A stretch of 64,000 nucleotides of DNA from Paraphaeosphaeria minitans. Lineage: Eukaryota > Ascomycota > Dothideomycetes > Pleosporales > Didymosphaeriaceae. The notes under the pieces are model-generated. The model saw only the letters and a program-made list of their open reading frames with translations, had not been told where the DNA came from and searched no databases. The DNA lies in NCBI GenBank assembly GCA_015832175.1, contig WJXW01000016.1, positions 806,001-870,000 on the forward strand, read 5' to 3'. Shown in pieces: positions 12,048-36,733 of the stretch. Each line of letters starts with the position of its first letter. Position 1 is the stretch's first letter. The translations under genes were made by a program, and so were the position numbers.

Positions 12048-12307
12048 GCTCTGTGAACGGTACAGTATGTATAAAGATTAGTTCAGGATTCCTTGAACAA
12101 TCAAATCAATAATAATACTTTTTTTCACACAAAGCTTCGGTGCGTTGCTCCTATCCTGGACGGGACAACTAAGCGCGTGCTTCCCACCCCACTTCGAGCA
12201 CAGTTTTTTGCATGCCGATTCTTCGCCGCCACTCCCCCTGTACATGGTCTTCATTCCTATATACTTTGCAACTACCTACTCCTTCATCAGACAGCTGAAA
12301 TCAAATC

Positions 12308-12456
12308 GGCCGTGTGGCCCAATGGCAAGGCGCTTGACTACGATGTCACGGGATCAAGAGATTCCAGGTATGTATTCAAAAGCTGGCAAAACAAGCCGGC
12401 AAGCCAATCAAGACAGTATCACTAACAATTGAAAGGTTCGACCCCTGGCACGGTCA
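12308..12456 (+). tRNA. tRNA-Arg(ACG) gene with two interruptions
   Basis: The acceptor arms GGCCGTG (12308-12314) and CACGGTC (12449-12455) pair fully with one G-U. The D stem is GCC/GGC; the anticodon stem CTTGA/TCAAG is perfect with anticodon ACG at 12340-12342. A 9-nt insert after position 37 (about 12344-12352) is at the canonical tRNA intron site. The T stem CCAGG/CCTGG is split between positions 52 and 53 by 68 nt (12368-12435) that starts GTATGT, contains CTAAC and ends AAAG. Without both inserts a 72-nt cloverleaf remains. The A-box-like TGGCCCAATGG and B-box GGTTCGACCCC are both intact. It may be functional after unusual processing, or a pseudogene. Confidence 0.8.
12368..12435 (+). 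other. 68-nt spliceosomal-intron-like insert in tRNA T-stem
   Basis: Begins GTATGT, has CACTAAC at 12420-12426 and ends GAAAG, sitting at a CCAG|G proto-splice context. The last nucleotide is ambiguous by one because G occurs at both borders. A 6-bp hairpin GCTGGC/GCCGGC (12382-12387 with 12395-12400) sits inside it. Confidence 0.7.
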
Positions 12457-12470
12457 ATATGACTTCCTTC

Positions 12471-12476
12471 TTTTTT
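12471..12476 (+). terminator. Pol III T-run downstream of tRNA-Arg
   Basis: Six consecutive T residues 15 nt beyond the tRNA 3-prime end, suitable as a Pol III terminator. Confidence 0.6.
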
Positions 12477-23668: not shown

Positions 23669-25938
23669 CTTGTTCACAGGGTTTACTCGGGCGAAACAAA
23701 AAGACTATTTAGTATTGCTGTGAAGTGATCACTCGGAGGCTCGAGCAGCAGACTACAGTTCTCAATGGTTAGCGTTTTGGGTCACCTGAGAACGGGTGGG
23801 CGGGCACAAGGCGTGTACGGTGTGGATAGCGAGCCGACGGACAAATTCCGTACCCTTCAGGGATAGCAGGGGTGCGTTTTTAGAATACACAGAATTTCGC
23901 AGGATGCTGGCTTCGAGAGCGCCCGTCTTGGAAGGGGAAGTTGGCTTACGGGGTTGCCCTGTGGCAGATGTCCGTGATGCGGTTCTAATCCGTATCGAGC
24001 ACTCTTGCTCTAGCACGCGGGCAGTTAAATAGGGGTTTGGCTTTGAAAATCGTATCGCAATTGCTGTACAGACTTTAGAGCTGTGCAGGAGAAAATGAGG
24101 GGAGGTGCGGTTAAGTGGCGTCTGAGAGTGGGCGGAAATGTCGTTAATGCCGTTAATTCCGGCGTGGACTGTAGGTACCGTAGAGTTTTTCTAACGCCGG
24201 TTGAGCTAGGTAGGTGATGATAAACGATCTAATCAAGAAACAGAATATATCGTGACAGCGGGTCAAAAAGAACGTACCGCTTGTATAATTGGGTGCAAGG
24301 TGCGATCTAGCTCAACCGGCATTAGAAAAACTCTACGGTAGGAACACTCAAGGCTCTATCGCACCTCCTTTGTGCGCTTAGTCGAAAGAAGCACTGCATC
24401 TTTTTCCTGTTAAGACCTAATTTTGCTTCGCACATGTCCTCAATCTCAGCTTTGAGGTCCTACCATTGAAGCGCGTCAATAAGAAAACAATATTTAGGGG
24501 TTGCGGCCGAATGTGTTCAAGGCAAATACTAGTCATAACAACTATGTACTTTTGACTACTAGCAATGCTCCTGTTATGTAGTACATCGCTATGGTTACGG
24601 AGAACCACACTACCTATACAGGGTATCGTATTCATCCCGTGTTGCCCAAACGCCGTAACAGTCCAAGACGAATCCTTTTTAAAGAGAGGCCTGTACAGAC
24701 GAAAACCTCATTGAGATGATCAAAAATACATATCGATAACTTGTTGGTAAGCTAATAGTGTCTACCGAAGCTCGAAAAGGATGGGCAGGCGCATACTCCG
24801 AACGCTATTGGGCGTTTTTGGTGTCTTGGTTGACTTCGGCGTCTCCGGTCTTTTCAAATTATCGGTTCTCTCTGCTACTGAATTATTCCCCGACGCCAAT
24901 GGCAGCAGTGTTGGTAGCAGTCTCTTCGTGTGCGAGTCTCGGGGATTGTAGAGAGCGAGCGGACTCTTCCGGTAGGTAAAACTCCGCCGAGGCCCCCCGG
25001 AAGAGTATTTCTCCTACGCTCATGTGCATTTTGCGCCAGCTTGTTTCAGGTCCAGTATAAGTGTGGAAGGATGTGTATGCGATGGGATTTTGTGCGCACT
25101 CACAATCTTGAAACGTCCATTTGCGAGCAAGAACGCGACTAAGAATACGAGCAAAAACACACAGGAAGACCAAAAGCAAACGCCCGCCCGATGTGGCTAT
25201 CGCTTGCAAGGCCAGAGAGCCCGGCTGTTCATATACGGACACGACACCCACTATGACGGAGCCGTACGATTAAGTGGAGCCGCGGCGTGGATGCCAGATC
25301 CAAATCAGGGCTATCGATCATCCCTGGTTATTTTTCCACCGCCAATCCCCATGCTAGACACAAGGAAGGATTCGCTGGCCTCGAGCAATTGTGCTGCACT
25401 GCAAATTGATGCATCGGCTGCTTCTTGGTTCGTGGTTCGTGTTGGTGCAACTGGAACTGTGTGCTGCGGACTGAAGGAGAGAGGCTGGTGTCTTGGGTCA
25501 AGGCGAAGACAGTCTTTGCTAGTCAGGTATTATCAAAACCTAGGTAGGTACGAATGAACACCGAAGGATCCTCCCGCATCTTGGGGCCACCCACGATGAT
25601 AAGCGCACTATTTACATGTCCAGCACATGGAATTTCGGTAAAAGAAAGTCCCAATAGTCTTAAAAGATGAGCTTGGGCCGACCTGTGCTGCTGCACCTGC
25701 ATCGATCTCAAACGATGCCGGGCGTATGGGCAAAGCCTGGGGTTGCAATTCTGGTCTGGCAGGTGTAGACGTCGAAGTCACTTTTAGTGCCCCGCTTCTA
25801 AGAGCTCTTGGATTGCTTCGGGTTGACGATAGTCCAGACGGTTGTTGGTGCTGTCCTTGTGGGTACCTATTGTCGCATCCCCTTACCGTACCCATCGCGT
25901 TCTGGGCTCGGACAAGGACGCGCCCGATGCAGGCAGAT
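23669..25938. other. Gene-poor region left of the transposon island
   Basis: Holds a 165-bp MITE-like element (24176-24340) and many short frames without domains. A minus-strand frame around 24883-25251 looks vaguely membrane-like but has no ATG start and no family I recognise. Probably intergenic or decayed DNA. Confidence 0.45.
24176..24340. mobile_element. MITE-like element with 34-bp terminal inverted repeats
   Basis: The left arm 24176-24209 (begins TACCGTAGAGTTTTTCTAA) is the reverse complement of the right arm 24307-24340 with one mismatch. Both ends carry TA, compatible with a TA target duplication as in Tc1/mariner-related MITEs. The 97-bp interior has no coding capacity. It could also be a fold-back sequence of other origin. 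Confidence 0.75.
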
Positions 25939-25941
25939 CAA
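25939..25941. other. Left 3-bp target-site duplication (CAA) of TIR element
   Basis: CAA immediately precedes the left TIR and recurs at 33383-33385 directly after the right TIR. Confidence 0.5.
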
Positions 25942-26227
25942 GGGCCTGTTCGGTAGACGTGATCTGGAGGCTTGATCTCATCTCGATTACTAGATCCAGT
26001 TAGGCTCACATTGAGATCACGCTGTGTTCAGTTCGAGCGTAATCTTAACGTCATAGATAGAGGTCTAATCTAGGAGTAATTAACTAGCTAAATTAAACTT
26101 TACTAGTGCTAATAGGATCTATATTTATACTTATTTAAGCGCAAGATTATAAGTTAAACTAAGTATAAAATTAGGAAGTCTATTTTACCTAATCTTAGAG
26201 CTTTTTAACGCCGCAATACTTAGTAAA

Positions 26228-26638
26228 TGTTAAATCCAAGAGGGTAGCTAGTCCTAAAGGGTTAAGGTTAGTTCTTAGGCAGGAGTACTTACAGAAGGTG
26301 GAAGGTCTTATTAATACAATAGTATCTTGCAAAGTATAATAAGTTAATAATTTAGTCTACTAGAATCTAAACAATAGATTAATAAACAGATTAAACACAA
26401 GTATAGAGAGCCTATTCTTACGTTCCTATATACTTTAAGCAATTAGTAGACTAATCGCTCTAATTAAACTAATTAAGCACTAATTAGTTACTTAGTATAT
26501 TAAGTGCTTAGTCTAATTAGTTATCTTAGCGCTCTAATTACACTAATTAGGTTACGTGACCTTTTGTGCTGTGCCACTTAAACAACAAATGTAGATATAT
26601 ATAAAAATCCTAAGAGGCCTAGCCTTTAGATCTTAACA
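26228..26638 (-). repeat. Left LTR (3-prime LTR in element orientation), 411 bp
   Basis: Starts TGTTAAATCC and ends ATCTTAACA. It aligns along its whole length with the right LTR and is visibly more AT-rich, with extra C-to-T/G-to-A differences. Confidence 0.9.
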
Positions 26639-29600
26639 TTATCTCTCTCTTTACTAGGATTTGTCCTTAAATTATATAACTGTGTCTTATACCTAGTTAT
26701 AACTAGAGCTCACCCTGCGTTATAAGTAGCGTTAGCTTACTTATATTATACCCTAATAACCTTCTAAGTCTAGCACCACTTATCGCTATTACCTAACTAA
26801 TTTTATTAACTCCTTTAGCAAAGTTATAGTTAAGAAATACTTAATATGTATAAAACATAACTGTGTTTATAAGGTTTATATTTAGTCTAGAAGATATAAG
26901 AAATATGTTTATTAAAGTTAACGTTGCAATATACGCGTTTTAGAGTCTAAGTTTAAGCGTTTATTAGTAGAGAAAGAGAAATTACGTGTGTAGATAAAAG
27001 AGTTAAGAGAAACGCAGGAGGCTACGTTTAAGGCCTATAAAGAGGCGTTAGAGAAGTTATAAGTTACATACACATATAAAGATTAGTTACGTTAGTAAAT
27101 AGACTTACTAAATAAGCGTGCTAAGAATACAATAGTAGTTAAAGAGAAGAATATTAAAAAGACTAAATCTCATAAGGCTATTAATCTAGTAGTTAACAAG
27201 ACTCCTTTAGGTCCCTTCTTATCCCCTACAACATAGAGCGCTTTTAAGGATTTCCTATTAAAATTCTAAGATAATCTAGTGCCTTTACTGTCTTAGGTAC
27301 AAATGTTATTATACTATATAGGTTATTAGTAGAATTCTCTAATCTTTTGTTAACAGTTTCCTAGATAGTTCTCTAGTTCCTAAGTGTTTTCGCTGTGTAA
27401 ATAACCTTTCCACTTAATAAAGTACGCGTTATTATACTAATTATATTCTAGAATTCTTTTAACCTTAAATTTATTTTCTTCCTTAGTTCTGTGGTAGAAG
27501 GCAGTTCTAACTAGTGTATTAGGGTCTGCTAGTTCCAGTAGTAATACGTAGAATACTAGGTGTATCTTTGCATCTGGCAGTAGTTCTAACTTATAGTTCA
27601 CTAGTAATTTTTACTTAGAAATATAAAATAGTCTAACCTTAATATAATCTAGTTTCTTATATTTTCTCTTCTAAGTTTAAAAGTTCTTTATAAGCAGATA
27701 TACTTTATCCCCCTTCTTTAGCTAAGGTGCTATTTTTTATTTTTAATTTTAGTATAAAATTAATTACTACTAAGCTTTCTTAAGATTTTCTTAGAGTTGT
27801 TAGTGTATTTTCTTTATATTTTCTGCTATATCTATAGCTTCTTTTGCTTTAATTGTCGTAGGAAATTATTAGTTAAAGAGATGTAGGTATCTTCTATAGT
27901 TTACATAGAATAGTGTATGTCCTAATACTGCTAATACTTTGTTATTATAGGCTAACTGTGCTATAGGTAGTAATAAAACCTAGTTATTCTTCTAACTATT
28001 GTAGTAGATACATAGGTACGTTTCTATAGTTTAGTTTATACGTTCTATTTATCTATTAGTTTGTAAATAGTAAGCTGTTAATAGTTTTTGTTTCATTCTA
28101 AGTAGTACTATAAGCGTTGCCTAATAATTTAACATAAAGAGCTTATCTCTATTACTAATAATTGTTTTTAGGATTCTGTAGTGTCTAATTAGTTAGTCTA
28201 AAATAAAAAAAGCGAGTTCCTTTGCTATTATTCTTCTAAAGCATGAAATGAGCTTAATATACTTAGTTAGTTGGCAGACTATTACTAGTATACTGTTATA
28301 TTTAATTCCTGTTATTAAATCCTTAGAGTTTAGAATTCCTATAACAAAATCTATAGCGATGTTTTCTTATGGTGCTGTTAGTATTCTAATTACTTACATC
28401 TCTCTATATTTGAGATATATACTATATTTGTTTCTCTAGTATTCTACACATTTGCGGATATAAGTTATTATAGCTTCCTTAATTCTTTTAAAGGTGTAAT
28501 TCCTTTAGATAAGTTCTATTGTCTTTGTGATGCCTAGATGTCTATACATAGGGTTATCGTGGTATTGTTAAATAATCTTAGTCTATAGATGTTCTAGAAC
28601 TTCTTAGTTAATTACTAAAAGTTAATTTAGTTCCGCTGTTAGCTCTAGAGATCTATCTTTGGCTTTACAAAGAATTGTAGAGAAGGTTTTTACTTTTTCT
28701 TTTACTAGATTACTTTGTTAGCTAAGAGCATCTGCTCTGCCATTTTCTTTTCTAGCTACATAGATAATTTTAAACTTATACTACCTAGTAGTTTACAACT
28801 ATTTTTATTATTATAGCGTAAGTTCTTTTGTTGTCGTGAACCTTAGAAGGTTCTTATAATCTATATAGATTTCTAGCGTTAAGTAACTAAGCGCGTAAAT
28901 CCTCTAGTGCTTTAAAGCTTTAATAATAGCGTAGAGTTCTTTATTATATACGTTGTATTGTGTTTTGGCGTTATTGAATTTACATAAATAATAGGTAATT
29001 AGGTGCTATTTACTATTATGTTCTTATTTAGCGTAGGCGCCTAGCGTAAGATTGCTAGCGTCTATTTTAAAGCGCAGTGGTTTATTACTTCTAAAATAAA
29101 TAAAGATAGGTTCTATAATACATACTATCTTAAGGAGTTAGAATAATATTCTGCACTTATCTGTCTATTTAAAGGGTACGTCCTTCTTTATAAGATTTAT
29201 TAAGGGTATCGTGACCTTTGCGTAATCTTGGATGAATTATTAGTTAAATTTATAGAATCTTAAGAATTCTTAGATATTTTTAGCTATCTTTAGTATTAGC
29301 TAGTTCTTAATGCATTTAACTTTACTTAGTGCTATCTTAATTCTTTCTATAGTAATAATGTGTCCTAGGAATTTAAGTTATTTAACGTTAAACTTACATT
29401 TCTTAAGTTTAATACAAAGGTATACTTTGTCTAGTGCTTCTAGTACTGTCTATACATACTTAGTGTGGTCCAATTTGTTTTTAAAAAAAACGAGGATATT
29501 ATCTATATACGCGATAACAAATATATCTAGATGTTTATAGAGTACGTTGTTAATAAGTGCTATAAAAGCTACTAGTGTATTTATAAGTCTAAATAGCATA

Positions 29601-32525
29601 ACCTTATATTTAAATAGTTTATAGCGTAATTAAAACACTGTTTTCTATTCTTTACCTTTCTTAATTTATATAAGGTGGTAACTGTCTCTTAGATCTATTA
29701 TTATAAATATCTTAGCTTAAGATAGTTAATCTCGTAACTCTACAATATTTAGTAGTAAATATTAGTTCTTTATTGTTATGTTATTAAGTTGTTAGTAGTT
29801 AACGCATAGTCTATCTAATCTATTCTTTTTCTTAACAAACATGAAAGGGCTTACTACTAGTGACTTTAATAGTTATATATATTCTTTCTTAAGGTTTGTC
29901 TTAATAAAATTACGTTCCTTAAGAAGTTCTTCTCCTGTCTTACTATATAGTAGTCTAAAGGGTGGCGTCTTCCCTTTTTCTAGATCTATTATAAGATCCT
30001 AGGGTTAATGTTCTAGTAGGTTTGCTTTTCCTTTTTTTTCTGTAAATATATGTGTCTATTTCCTGTACTCTCTTAGTAAGGTAAGGGGTGTGCTATTATT
30101 CTCCTTTTTACACTTCTTAATCTAGTAGTTCCTACTAGCGTCTGCTAAGGTGTATTTCTATTTTTTAACTATCTATTGTAGTATTATGTTGTTAATAACT
30201 CCCTTATTTACTATTATTTTTAGTTAATATATAGGCTTTACTTATAATGCATAATTACAGCGTTTAAACAATATTTTCTTTATACCCTAGTTAATCTATA
30301 AGTTGTGTATTATTAACTAAGGTAATCCTAAGACTAACTTATACTTAGATCCTAGTAAGACATCTAAGGTAAGTTCCTCTCTATGTCCTTAAACTATTAT
30401 TATAGTAGTGACCTCCTAGTATATTTAAGGTGTCTTAGGCATTAGGGATCTATTCGCGACATAGATAATATAGGGTACTTTTTTCTCTAATATTATAAGT
30501 CCTACTTATCTTACTATCTAATAAAATATAAAGTTCTTTCCTACTTTTAAGTCTACAAGAGCTTAAGCCCGTATTCCTTTAAGCTATACTAGTAGCTTAA
30601 CTAATACTATGCTTACTATAGTATTTAATTTAATAAAGGCGTTTTCTCGTCTAAGTTTAGGCCTAAAAAAGACATCTGTTTATATAGGTTATAGTTAAGT
30701 TCTAGTGCCTAGTATGTGTTTCTAAGCATCCGCTTCTATTATTATTTTTAAGTATATAGCTTATGTAGATTGTCTTCTTCTTCTTCTTCTTATAAGGATG
30801 TTCTTCTGTTTTTCCTTCCGCAGTTTTTACTGTTCCTATATACTAGTTAAATTAGTAGCTCTATTATTACTTTTTACGTAGGGCAGTTTGCAAAGCTGTC
30901 CAAACGTTTAGCTATATAGTAGTATTTACAGTCTTAGTTTAGACACGTGTACTAGTACAGTTATATATAGTCTCTATTAATAAGTATATTATAGTATTTA
31001 TTACCCTTTAGCGTAAGGTAAGGAAAGTATTTTACTTATTATTTATTCTAGAGGTGTTTGTTATAAGCTACAATAGGGTAGTCTGTTTATATCTATCTAT
31101 AGCGTAGTTTCCTTCTAGGTTATTTCTTATTCTCCTCTTTCTCTGCCTTATGTTGTGCGTATATTAGTTCTTCACAATGCGTCCACATACAGAATTAGTG
31201 TGTAGAATTTTAGTAGTTTAGGTAGTACTTTAGTACGTAGTCTAACTTCTTATTTTTGTAGGGTTGCATTCCTTTTAGTGCTTAGTAGGGTTCTATATAG
31301 TCCTAAACATTTAGTTTATACTTAGGTAACATAGGGTTGTCTTCTTCCTACCTACTTTATAGGTAAGGAGTAGGAGATTTTAGTATCTCTTCTACGTCTT
31401 CTGTATTATAGTATACGTTGGAGTCATCTTCTAGATCTTTATATAGTTATAAGTTAGATAAATCTAATTACTTACTTTGCTCTAGTGTAACGCGTTAGTA
31501 ACTAAATAGCGTTGTAATAACTTCTTATTTCTTATTAAGTTCTTAGTCCTTAATAGTTAGTACATTTAACTTAGTTTAATAGACTTTGTTCTTCAATCTA
31601 TAGTTCCTAGCTATATAGCCTAGTTTACTATATATAAAGCATTTATAGGTCTTAGTTATTAGTTATTAACTTCTATTAGAGACGCATTTATTAGGCTACT
31701 TAAGACCTATCCTTCCTCTTTTTCCTTTGCTTATATAGTTAAACTAAACATCTTTTATTAGTTTATATCTCTAGTAGTTCCTTAGCTGTTGCTTTTAGAC
31801 AATTCTAATAGGGTTCTTATAAACCACTTTTACTAGTTATCTAAAGCTTATTGCCTTAGAGTTTTAGTAGAGCTCTTATTGCAGTAAAAACTACTCTCTA
31901 TTAATTCTAATAGTTTCTTTATATAGTTCTTTAAAGTTAGTAATTTGTGCACTACTACGTAAGAGTTCCTTACATAGTTTCTGTTTAAGTCCTTATTTAT
32001 ACATATCCTAAAGAGATTTATTGTCCTAGTTAAGTTGCACAGCGTATCTACGAAACTTAGCTATATACTTAGCTACTAATTATTTCTAAGTTATAGTCTA
32101 AATTTTTACCTTTGCAATAGAGTCCTTATTAGCGATCCTAAAGAGTTATTTAAAATATTTCTTAAAGTTATTATAATCCTTAATAATATTAACTATATTA
32201 GTGTGCTTATTTACGTAATTGTTATTATTATTATTATAGTCTATTCCTAGGTACTTTTTAAGGTAGGAATAGATCTATAATCCTATATCTCCTTATATAT
32301 ATATTGCTGCAAAGATAACCTTCTTTTTATCTTTAAGGGGTTTGTCTAAGTTAAAGAAGTAGAGGTCTAGTTAGAGAATCTAGACGTTAGTTTAAGATTA
32401 TTCGCTAAAGTAGAGATTAGGTTTATATACCTTACTACTATCCTTTATAAAAGTAATCTTAGCGGCACCTAAAGCTGTAGAAGAGGTAGAAGTTCGTGAA
32501 GTACTTATATTAAGGGTGTTTAAGA

Positions 32526-36603: not shown

Positions 36604-36722
36604 ACATACGACCATAGGACCTTGAAAATTGGGCTTCCCGTCCGCTCAGCCTTACACAAGCAGGGTACCGGCGGATCAGTAGTCAGGTGGGTGACCACTG
36701 GCGAATCCCCGCTGTTGTATGT
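36604..36722 (+). rRNA. 5S ribosomal RNA
   Basis: 119 nt starting ACATACGACCATAGG and ending CTGTTGTATGT, with the conserved internal block GGGCTTCCCGTCCGCTCAGC and the block GGTGGGTGACCACTGGCGAA. The terminal stem ACATAC/GTATGT pairs, and helix II (ACCTTG with CAGGGT) is retained by compensating changes relative to the Neurospora-type sequence. It is a single dispersed copy, as usual in filamentous ascomycetes where 5S genes lie outside the rDNA array. A T-run follows. Confidence 0.93.
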
Positions 36723-36733
36723 TTTTTTTTTTT
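36722..36733 (+). terminator. Pol III T-run terminator of 5S rRNA
   Basis: A run of twelve T residues begins at the last base of the 5S gene. Confidence 0.8.

Follow-up and report, generated by a model that had tools for sequence, protein, structure and literature searches.

Textbook accounts keep two intron pathways apart: tRNA introns are removed by an endonuclease and a ligase, and spliceosomal introns are removed by the spliceosome, whose work is coupled to RNA polymerase II (Pol II) and the cap. tRNA genes are transcribed by Pol III into uncapped precursors, they have no reading frame, and their products must fold exactly once the exons have been joined. The mRNA-type intron found in the U6 snRNA genes of fission yeast and some other fungi indicates that Pol III transcripts can nonetheless be substrates of the spliceosome. 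Inserts in the D- and T-arms of eukaryotic tRNA genes have been supposed to mark pseudogenes, a view to which a review, in the part available to us, names nucleomorphs and C. merolae as exceptions (PMC4090602). For C. merolae, the accessible portion of a paper reports that U55 is left unconverted by Pus4 as long as the T-arm contains an intron and supposes that the D- and T-introns are the first to go (PMC9602550). The spliceosome is not part of these discussions, as far as their texts were available: no word beginning with "spliceosom" occurs in that portion of the review (PMC4090602) or in that of the tRNAscan-SE 2.0 paper, which treats noncanonical introns as archaeal and limits eukaryotic tRNA genes to one intron (PMC8450103). 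Likewise, the word tRNA is absent from the available text of a paper on introner-like elements in the Dothideomycetes (PMC4457414). In the open-licence literature searched, to the extent that its texts were accessible and with bioRxiv and most subscription papers outside the scope, no paper that we found describes a spliceosomal intron in a nuclear tRNA gene.

The locus described here is a tRNA-Arg(ACG) gene of the fungus Paraphaeosphaeria minitans, located at 12308..12456 on the + strand of the window, by which we mean the whole stretch of 64,000 nt that was analysed. A preliminary description had read this gene as broken between nucleotides 52 and 53 by 68 nt with GTATGT at the start, CTAAC about 10 nt before the end, and a terminal AG, with a second intron of 9 nt in the anticodon loop and with A-box, B-box, and T-run intact; this anatomy was borne out in every part. 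The Rfam tRNA model (RF00005) matches exactly these 149 nt over their full length, at 32.6 bits against a gathering score of 29, and the extra bases fall in the T-arm part of the alignment. Exon 1 (12308..12343) comprises the 5' strand of the acceptor, the D-arm, and the 5' half of the anticodon arm with ACG. It is followed by the canonical anticodon-loop intron of 9 nt, of the tRNA splicing endonuclease type (12344..12352), which ARAGORN reports as i(36,9) on the joined form, and by exon 2 (12353..12367), with the 3' strand of the anticodon arm, the variable loop, and the CCAG of the T-stem. The 68-nt spliceosomal-type intron (12368..12435) comes next, and exon 3 (12436..12456) supplies G53, the T-loop, and the 3' strands of the T-stem and acceptor. 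Read in order, the gene consists of GGCCGTG..CTACGA, the 9-nt anticodon intron, ATCAAGAGATTCCAG, the intron GTATGT..CACTAACAATTGAAAG, and GTTCGACCCCTGGCACGGTCA. The longer intron begins with the 5' splice site GTATGT (12368..12373), carries a branch-point-like CTAAC (12422..12426) whose A at 12425 lies 10 nt from the 3' splice site, and ends with AAG (12433..12435); a 6-bp hairpin, GCTGGC/GCCGGC (12382..12400), is predicted within it, the z-score of the intron being -1.24, which is not significant.

Repeated letters at the junction allow five placements of the insert (-2 to +2), all of which give the same joined sequence and exactly one of which is bordered by GT and AG. The preliminary description had also suggested comparing the Arg(ACG) genes of this genome, and a DNA search of the genome found five: the window copy and four uninterrupted genes on contigs C1, C3, C4, and C5. 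The mature parts of those four equal the joined exons of the window gene, each of its three exons being identical to the paralogs with no substitution and no broken stem, and the 68 nt are absent from all four. Because the joined exons equal four uninterrupted genes, the recognition of the insert does not depend on any splice motif. At the place of the 9-nt anticodon intron, the paralogs carry other short inserts of different sequence.

The window gene has the signals of a transcribed tRNA gene. The A-box TGGCCCAATGG (12315..12325) and the B-box GGTTCGACCCC (12435..12445) have 0 mismatches to the consensus used, the latter being whole in the DNA because the last base of the intron serves as the first G of the box. 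A TATA-like element, TATATA, lies at -50 (12258..12263), and a T6 run resembling a Pol III terminator (12471..12476) starts 15 nt past the gene end. Applied to the window, ARAGORN reported no tRNA in one setting and a wrong one (Gly) when introns were allowed; with the 68-nt insert taken out, it read Arg(ACG). In joined form, the sequence thus gives a cloverleaf with ACG, both internal boxes, and a terminator, as expected of a tRNA-Arg(ACG) gene, and we regard the window copy as probably functional, judging from its sequence, though it is one of five found. Given the four intact paralogs, this copy alone would be dispensable. The window also holds a lone, complete, and uninterrupted 5S rRNA gene (36604-36723; 72.8 bits) and an AT-rich stretch at 24001-32000 (GC content, 0.395 and then 0.286) between GC-richer gene stretches, similar to the islands of repeat-induced mutation seen in such fungi. 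A lactonase-like protein encoded in the window has Didymosphaeria variabile, a member of the Pleosporales, as its best named match (91% identity), followed by Kalmusia sp. (80%), and on this one protein the fungus would be taken as pleosporalean; a search with another protein showed no named fungus among the 120 hits listed.

We consider it very probable that the insert is a U2-type spliceosomal intron in a Pol III-transcribed tRNA gene and that at least 22 functional genes of this kind exist in the genome. The preliminary description had raised a spliceosomal intron captured by a Pol III gene as one of several readings, and the evidence outlined below supports that reading on a broader scale than was then proposed. 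In the genome searched (47.45 Mb, 30 contigs), 22 of 93 nuclear-type tRNA places are interrupted by inserts of 49 to 68 nt, at sites from the acceptor stem to the T-loop; this is about a quarter of an incomplete sample. The figure of 93 is a lower bound on the gene set (97 distinct tRNA places listed, minus 4 of mitochondrial type on contig C3), includes three decayed pieces (C12:1506687, C12:1506744, and C9:1488069), and counts as uninterrupted, without reading of the sequence, some places known only as one unbroken match. The underlying lists comprise 62 scored out of 1307 first-look candidates in one search, 40 of 73 in another, and four complete lists. Interrupted genes were reached through weak Rfam matches, then homology searches with joined mature sequences, and then reading of the loci; all 22 were first met by tRNA homology, and a motif scan of the loci collected by that stage added none.

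Some side observations concern the same lists. L119 (C12:1506687-1506816) is a decayed copy, with many exon changes, of the tandem tRNA-Ile/tRNA-Glu pair L118 (C4:352192-352395) and is likely a pair of tRNA pseudogenes, and L126 (C9:1488069 onward) is a tRNA-Ala copy with a near-intact 5' half, a scrambled T-arm, and by eye no GT..AG insert, which looks like a pseudogene. The four mitochondrial-type tRNAs (L009, L012, L013, and L052) lie together at C3:2840217-2853194, on a contig of nuclear size, which points either to a large piece of mitochondrial DNA inserted in the nuclear genome or to a join made during assembly. At C3:286482-286677 (L120), a tRNA-Thr(AGT) gene is duplicated in tandem; the two copies are identical, have similar flanks, and are separated by less than 30 nt.

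The 22 interrupted genes comprise five for Gly(GCC), three each for initiator Met and His(GTG), two each for Leu(CAG) and Pro(AGG), and one each for Arg(ACG), Ser(CGA), Leu(AAG), Thr(CGT), Pro(TGG), Ala(CGC), and Arg(TCG). These anticodon names, Arg(TCG) among them, are partly our own reading, and those given by ARAGORN differ in places: the intact paralogs of Arg(TCG) and Gly(GCC) are called Gly-TCC and Thr-AGT, respectively, and one Pro(AGG) is called Pyl. By our grouping, the 22 genes represent 14 insertion events. Toward the 5' end, the sites are 3|4 in the acceptor stem (Ser), 5|6 (Thr), and 10|11 (Leu-CAG a). In the D-arm, the introns of the Pro genes and of Arg-TCG lie in the D-loop, and those of Leu-AAG, Leu-CAG b, and Ala lie on the 3' side of the arm. 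Initiator-Met gene a is interrupted at the end of the anticodon loop and the other two initiator-Met genes in the variable loop, and the T-arm sites are 52|53 (Arg), 53|54 (His), and 60|61 (Gly). None of these is the canonical position 37/38, the window insert lying at 52|53 and the others ranging from 3|4 to 60|61; anticodon introns are also kept in many tRNA genes of this genome.

Such genes are easily missed. For nine interrupted genes tested with ARAGORN before joining, no tRNA was reported in seven, the wrong one (Gly) was reported for the window gene, and the right one was reported only for initiator-Met gene a. After joining, all nine gave a tRNA, and six of the nine gave the expected anticodon; Ser was read with an incomplete anticodon, Thr as Trp, and one His as Asp, misreadings probably due to anticodon introns left in. 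When the genome was queried with six fungal tRNA sequences (Phe, Tyr, Trp, Val, elongator Met, and Pro), no match was obtained. Among the matches listed in the whole-genome tRNA searches, no gene was recognised as Phe, Tyr, Trp, Val, or elongator Met, and these genes may be intact but outside the capped sample, or they may score low because they, too, are interrupted. Patterns of 20 to 24 letters from the interrupted tRNAs, searched in collections of genome contigs and viral contigs, gave two matches, both without tRNA context.

What do the inserts have in common? All 22 have GT..AG borders at exactly one of their allowed placements (43 placements in total, 1 to 5 per gene). For 10 of the 14 events, among them that of the window gene, an intact paralog or a sister gene with its insert at another site determines the boundary, and for those ten the chance of GT..AG agreement is about 7e-22, at 1/256 per placement; the boundaries of Ser, Leu-CAG a, Leu-CAG b, and His were set by the restored stems together with GT..AG. 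The donor is of the GTRNGT type, with G at +5 in 22/22 introns and T at +6 in 19/22, the exceptions being GTAAGA in Arg-TCG and GTAAGC in two others. Position -3 is C or T in 20/22. A CTRAY motif whose A lies 9 to 13 nt from the 3' end (10 nt in the window gene) occurs in 20 introns and is missing from Leu-AAG and Arg-TCG, which have CTCAC and CTTAC, respectively, at about the right place. (The two introns lacking CTRAY belong to L110 [C2:1331638-1331785] and L133 [C3:3287788-3287943], the latter with the GTAAGA donor.) Intron lengths range from 49 to 68 nt, with a median of 52 (n=22). Nine candidate coding introns of the window, picked by eye, are 46 to 57 nt long and have the same layout; they are candidates only, taken from 23 of 90 raw donor candidates that have a branch motif, the tRNA insert itself among them. 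A motif alone is unconvincing, since the strict pattern GTANGT..CTRAC..HAG occurs 6 times in the whole window, hardly above the mean of 4.0 (range, 1 to 8) in 20 resampled sequences.

The same signals bear on a different reading. The preliminary description had raised a noncanonical tRNA intron; taken further, this would have the inserts excised by the tRNA splicing endonuclease and the exons sealed by tRNA ligase, in the manner of archaea, C. merolae, and cryptomonad nucleomorphs. D- and T-arm introns in eukaryotic tRNA genes do have this precedent, according to the available parts of three papers (PMC4090602, PMC9602550, and PMC3978253). The enzyme is presumably present here, given the anticodon introns in many tRNA genes, and the intron of initiator-Met gene a does lie at the end of the anticodon loop. 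However, the pathway requires neither GT..AG borders, nor CTRAY some 10 nt from the end, nor a length near 52 nt, and a test for the bulge-helix-bulge motif (a central 4-bp helix between two 3-nt bulges that contain the cuts, applied to all 22 genes at all allowed placements) left the core incomplete in 21/22: the central helix is complete in Ala-CGC alone, at a placement that is not GT..AG, and has no more than 3 of its 4 pairs in the window gene. Absence of the motif does not settle the matter, since many nucleomorph introns are said, in the accessible literature, to form no defined bulge-helix-bulge. The introns of the Guillardia theta nucleomorph at noncanonical positions are, however, given as only 3 to 24 nt in the available part of the review (PMC4090602). 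Overall, we judge removal by the endonuclease very improbable for these inserts.

A further possibility concerns where the introns came from and would leave the product a spliceosomal intron: introner-like elements, a mobile intron family, may lately have spread into tRNA genes. Such elements are known from the Dothideomycetes, as the accessible text of one paper describes (PMC4457414), and some pairs of introns from different sites score 11 to 12 against a shuffle maximum of 11. Against this, the preliminary description's suggestion of looking for further copies of the 68-nt insert was followed by a DNA search of the genome, which gave a single match, at the insert's own place, though such a search is no proof of rarity. 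Clear likeness is found only among the three His introns (71-84%) and between the two Pro(AGG) introns (70%), each group confined to a single site, a pattern expected from gene duplication. An introner-like element would leave many near-identical copies at different sites; among the tRNA introns, to which the comparison was limited, there are none, and no clear sequence is common to introns from different tRNA sites. We therefore see little chance that an introner family, as the preliminary description had also allowed, is the source.

Are the interrupted genes alive? The third reading in the preliminary description was that of a disabled copy, that is, a pseudogene broken by DNA insertion. 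Intact ACG genes, which it named as one sign of this, do exist: there are four. Intact copies are in fact known for eight of the interrupted families, Arg-ACG, Gly-GCC, Leu-AAG, Pro-AGG, Pro-TGG, Ala-CGC, Thr-CGT, and Arg-TCG, and for Ser(CGA) in another isodecoder, so that the interrupted copies in those eight families, the window gene included, may be dispensable. Eukaryotic inserts have moreover been described as lying mostly in one of many synonymous genes, supposed pseudogenes, in the accessible part of the review (PMC4090602). What this reading leaves unexplained is that every initiator-Met and His gene found is interrupted and that the exons are conserved. The three initiator-Met genes that were found carry their introns at one or the other of two positions and yield the same 72-nt product; of the three His genes found, every one is split at 53|54. 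No intact initiator-Met gene was found in this assembly, where a 26-mer across both sites (up to 3 mismatches) hit only the second exon and intron end of gene a; nor was an intact His gene, a 26-mer over the T-arm, also with up to 3 mismatches, giving no match in the assembly. Initiator-Met and His tRNAs are indispensable. For Leu(CAG), no intact gene of the L111 type was found with a Leu 20-mer that fits AAG or CAG (up to 2 mismatches); it matched three places, all of them intact Leu(AAG) genes, so that the two Leu(CAG) genes observed are interrupted as well, with the second isodecoder examined by homology only.

Constraint is seen on the exons and not on the introns. Among the five interrupted Gly(GCC) genes, four match an intact copy exactly in their exons, and in the fifth the acceptor pair 5-68 has changed from C-G to T-A on both sides, a compensated change; the anticodon-stem differences of Arg(TCG) and Thr(CGT) from their intact paralogs are likewise paired changes. 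The cores of the Gly(GCC) introns, which share one site, are 45-59% identical, compared with shuffle means of 46-51% and shuffle maxima of 58-67%. Introns have thus diverged to shuffle level beside exons that are identical or compensated. The decayed copies L119 and L126 look different by eye, with exon changes and no GT..AG insert. We reject the pseudogene reading for the set, for which it is very improbable, and leave it low weight for the single Arg copy of the window. A group I or group II intron is excluded by size, 68 nt being far too short for either, and by the Rfam scan of the window, in which no catalytic core was found and only tRNA and 5S rRNA reached the gathering score.

A further line of evidence on whether these genes are alive comes from their Pol III signals. 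TTTT occurs within 40 nt downstream in 22/22 interrupted genes and in 66/71 other ARAGORN tRNA calls, and a TATA-like element occurs in 16 of the 18 interrupted genes with at least 49 nt of upstream DNA and in 52/71 of the other calls, these being raw counts without a shuffled background against a rough comparison set that holds mitochondrial-type and some interrupted genes. According to the available part of one review, a TATA box upstream of the gene is important for tRNA transcription in certain plants and fungi (PMC3978253). In a crude count of best matches, the unspliced DNA equals the spliced form for the A-box in 21/22 genes and for the B-box in 14/22, the best B-box match not always being the T-loop for initiator Met and Pro(TGG). 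The B-box of the DNA is poorer by 1 match for the three His genes and by 2 for the five Gly genes. Most of the introns thus spare the inner promoter, as would suit a gene transcribed by Pol III.

Taken together, these observations are consistent with a model in which Pol III, guided by TATA-like elements and the nearly whole A- and B-boxes, would transcribe a precursor from genes of 124 to 153 nt plus a trailer. We posit that U1, U2, and the ordinary spliceosome would recognise the GTRNGT-type donor, CTAAC, and AG and excise the intron of 49 to 68 nt. The T- or D-arm would be able to fold only after removal of the spliceosomal intron, and the restored tRNA fold would then be a substrate for end trimming and for modification of the D- and T-arms. 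Where an anticodon intron is also present, we predict that the tRNA splicing endonuclease acts after the spliceosome. Transcription by Pol III, cutting by the spliceosome, and the order of these steps are all what we would expect from the layout of the genes.

In this model, because all copies found of two essential tRNAs are interrupted by mRNA-type introns, protein synthesis probably needs the mRNA-splicing machine for its tRNA. We regard it as likely that the spliceosome is an essential tRNA-maturation enzyme in this fungus, perhaps across a clade of the Pleosporales; that translation initiation is tied directly to spliceosome activity, since every initiator-Met and His tRNA would have to pass through the spliceosome; and that tRNA genes have gained U2-type introns repeatedly, for the most part at positions where the internal Pol III promoter is little disturbed. 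At least 22 tRNA genes, including all those found for initiator Met and His, thus appear to break the textbook separation of intron pathways. If so, the spliceosome handles uncapped Pol III transcripts of some 124 to 153 nt (the lengths of the genes) as routine and life-critical work, and several general questions become testable. To what extent does efficient splicing need a cap and the tail of Pol II, here in a natural setting? How do introns enter genes that have no reading frame? Could splicing capacity set the rate of translation initiation? There is also a practical consequence: in such genomes, tRNA finders can miss essential tRNA genes, as ARAGORN did with the window gene and with seven of the nine interrupted genes tested unspliced.

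How, then, do these introns compare with the systems already described? Canonical eukaryotic tRNA introns at 37/38 are found in many of the same genes, including the window gene (9 nt), and differ from the present inserts, which have another position, another length, conserved borders, and a branch motif. The ectopic introns of C. merolae and nucleomorphs share more, namely, sites in the D- and T-arms, the company in some genes of a canonical anticodon intron, and 53|54 as a common site, as described in the accessible parts of three papers (PMC9602550, PMC4090602, and PMC3978253). The same texts describe those introns as very short or of the bulge-helix-bulge type and attribute them to the tRNA splicing endonuclease, whereas the present fungal introns have spliceosomal signals and, in 21/22, no bulge-helix-bulge. 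The U6 introns of fungi are alike in being spliceosomal introns in a Pol III transcript and different in belonging to one snRNA gene and not to tRNA. In this genome, no U6 intron was found, the one match among the 47 of 2663 candidates scored being an unbroken 102 nt, which is a point against the spliceosomal reading. Finally, the inserts agree with the U2-type introns of filamentous ascomycetes in their GT..AG borders, a GTAAGT-like donor, a CTAAC-like motif about 10 nt from the acceptor, and a length of about 50 nt; the difference is that here such introns lie inside tRNA genes.
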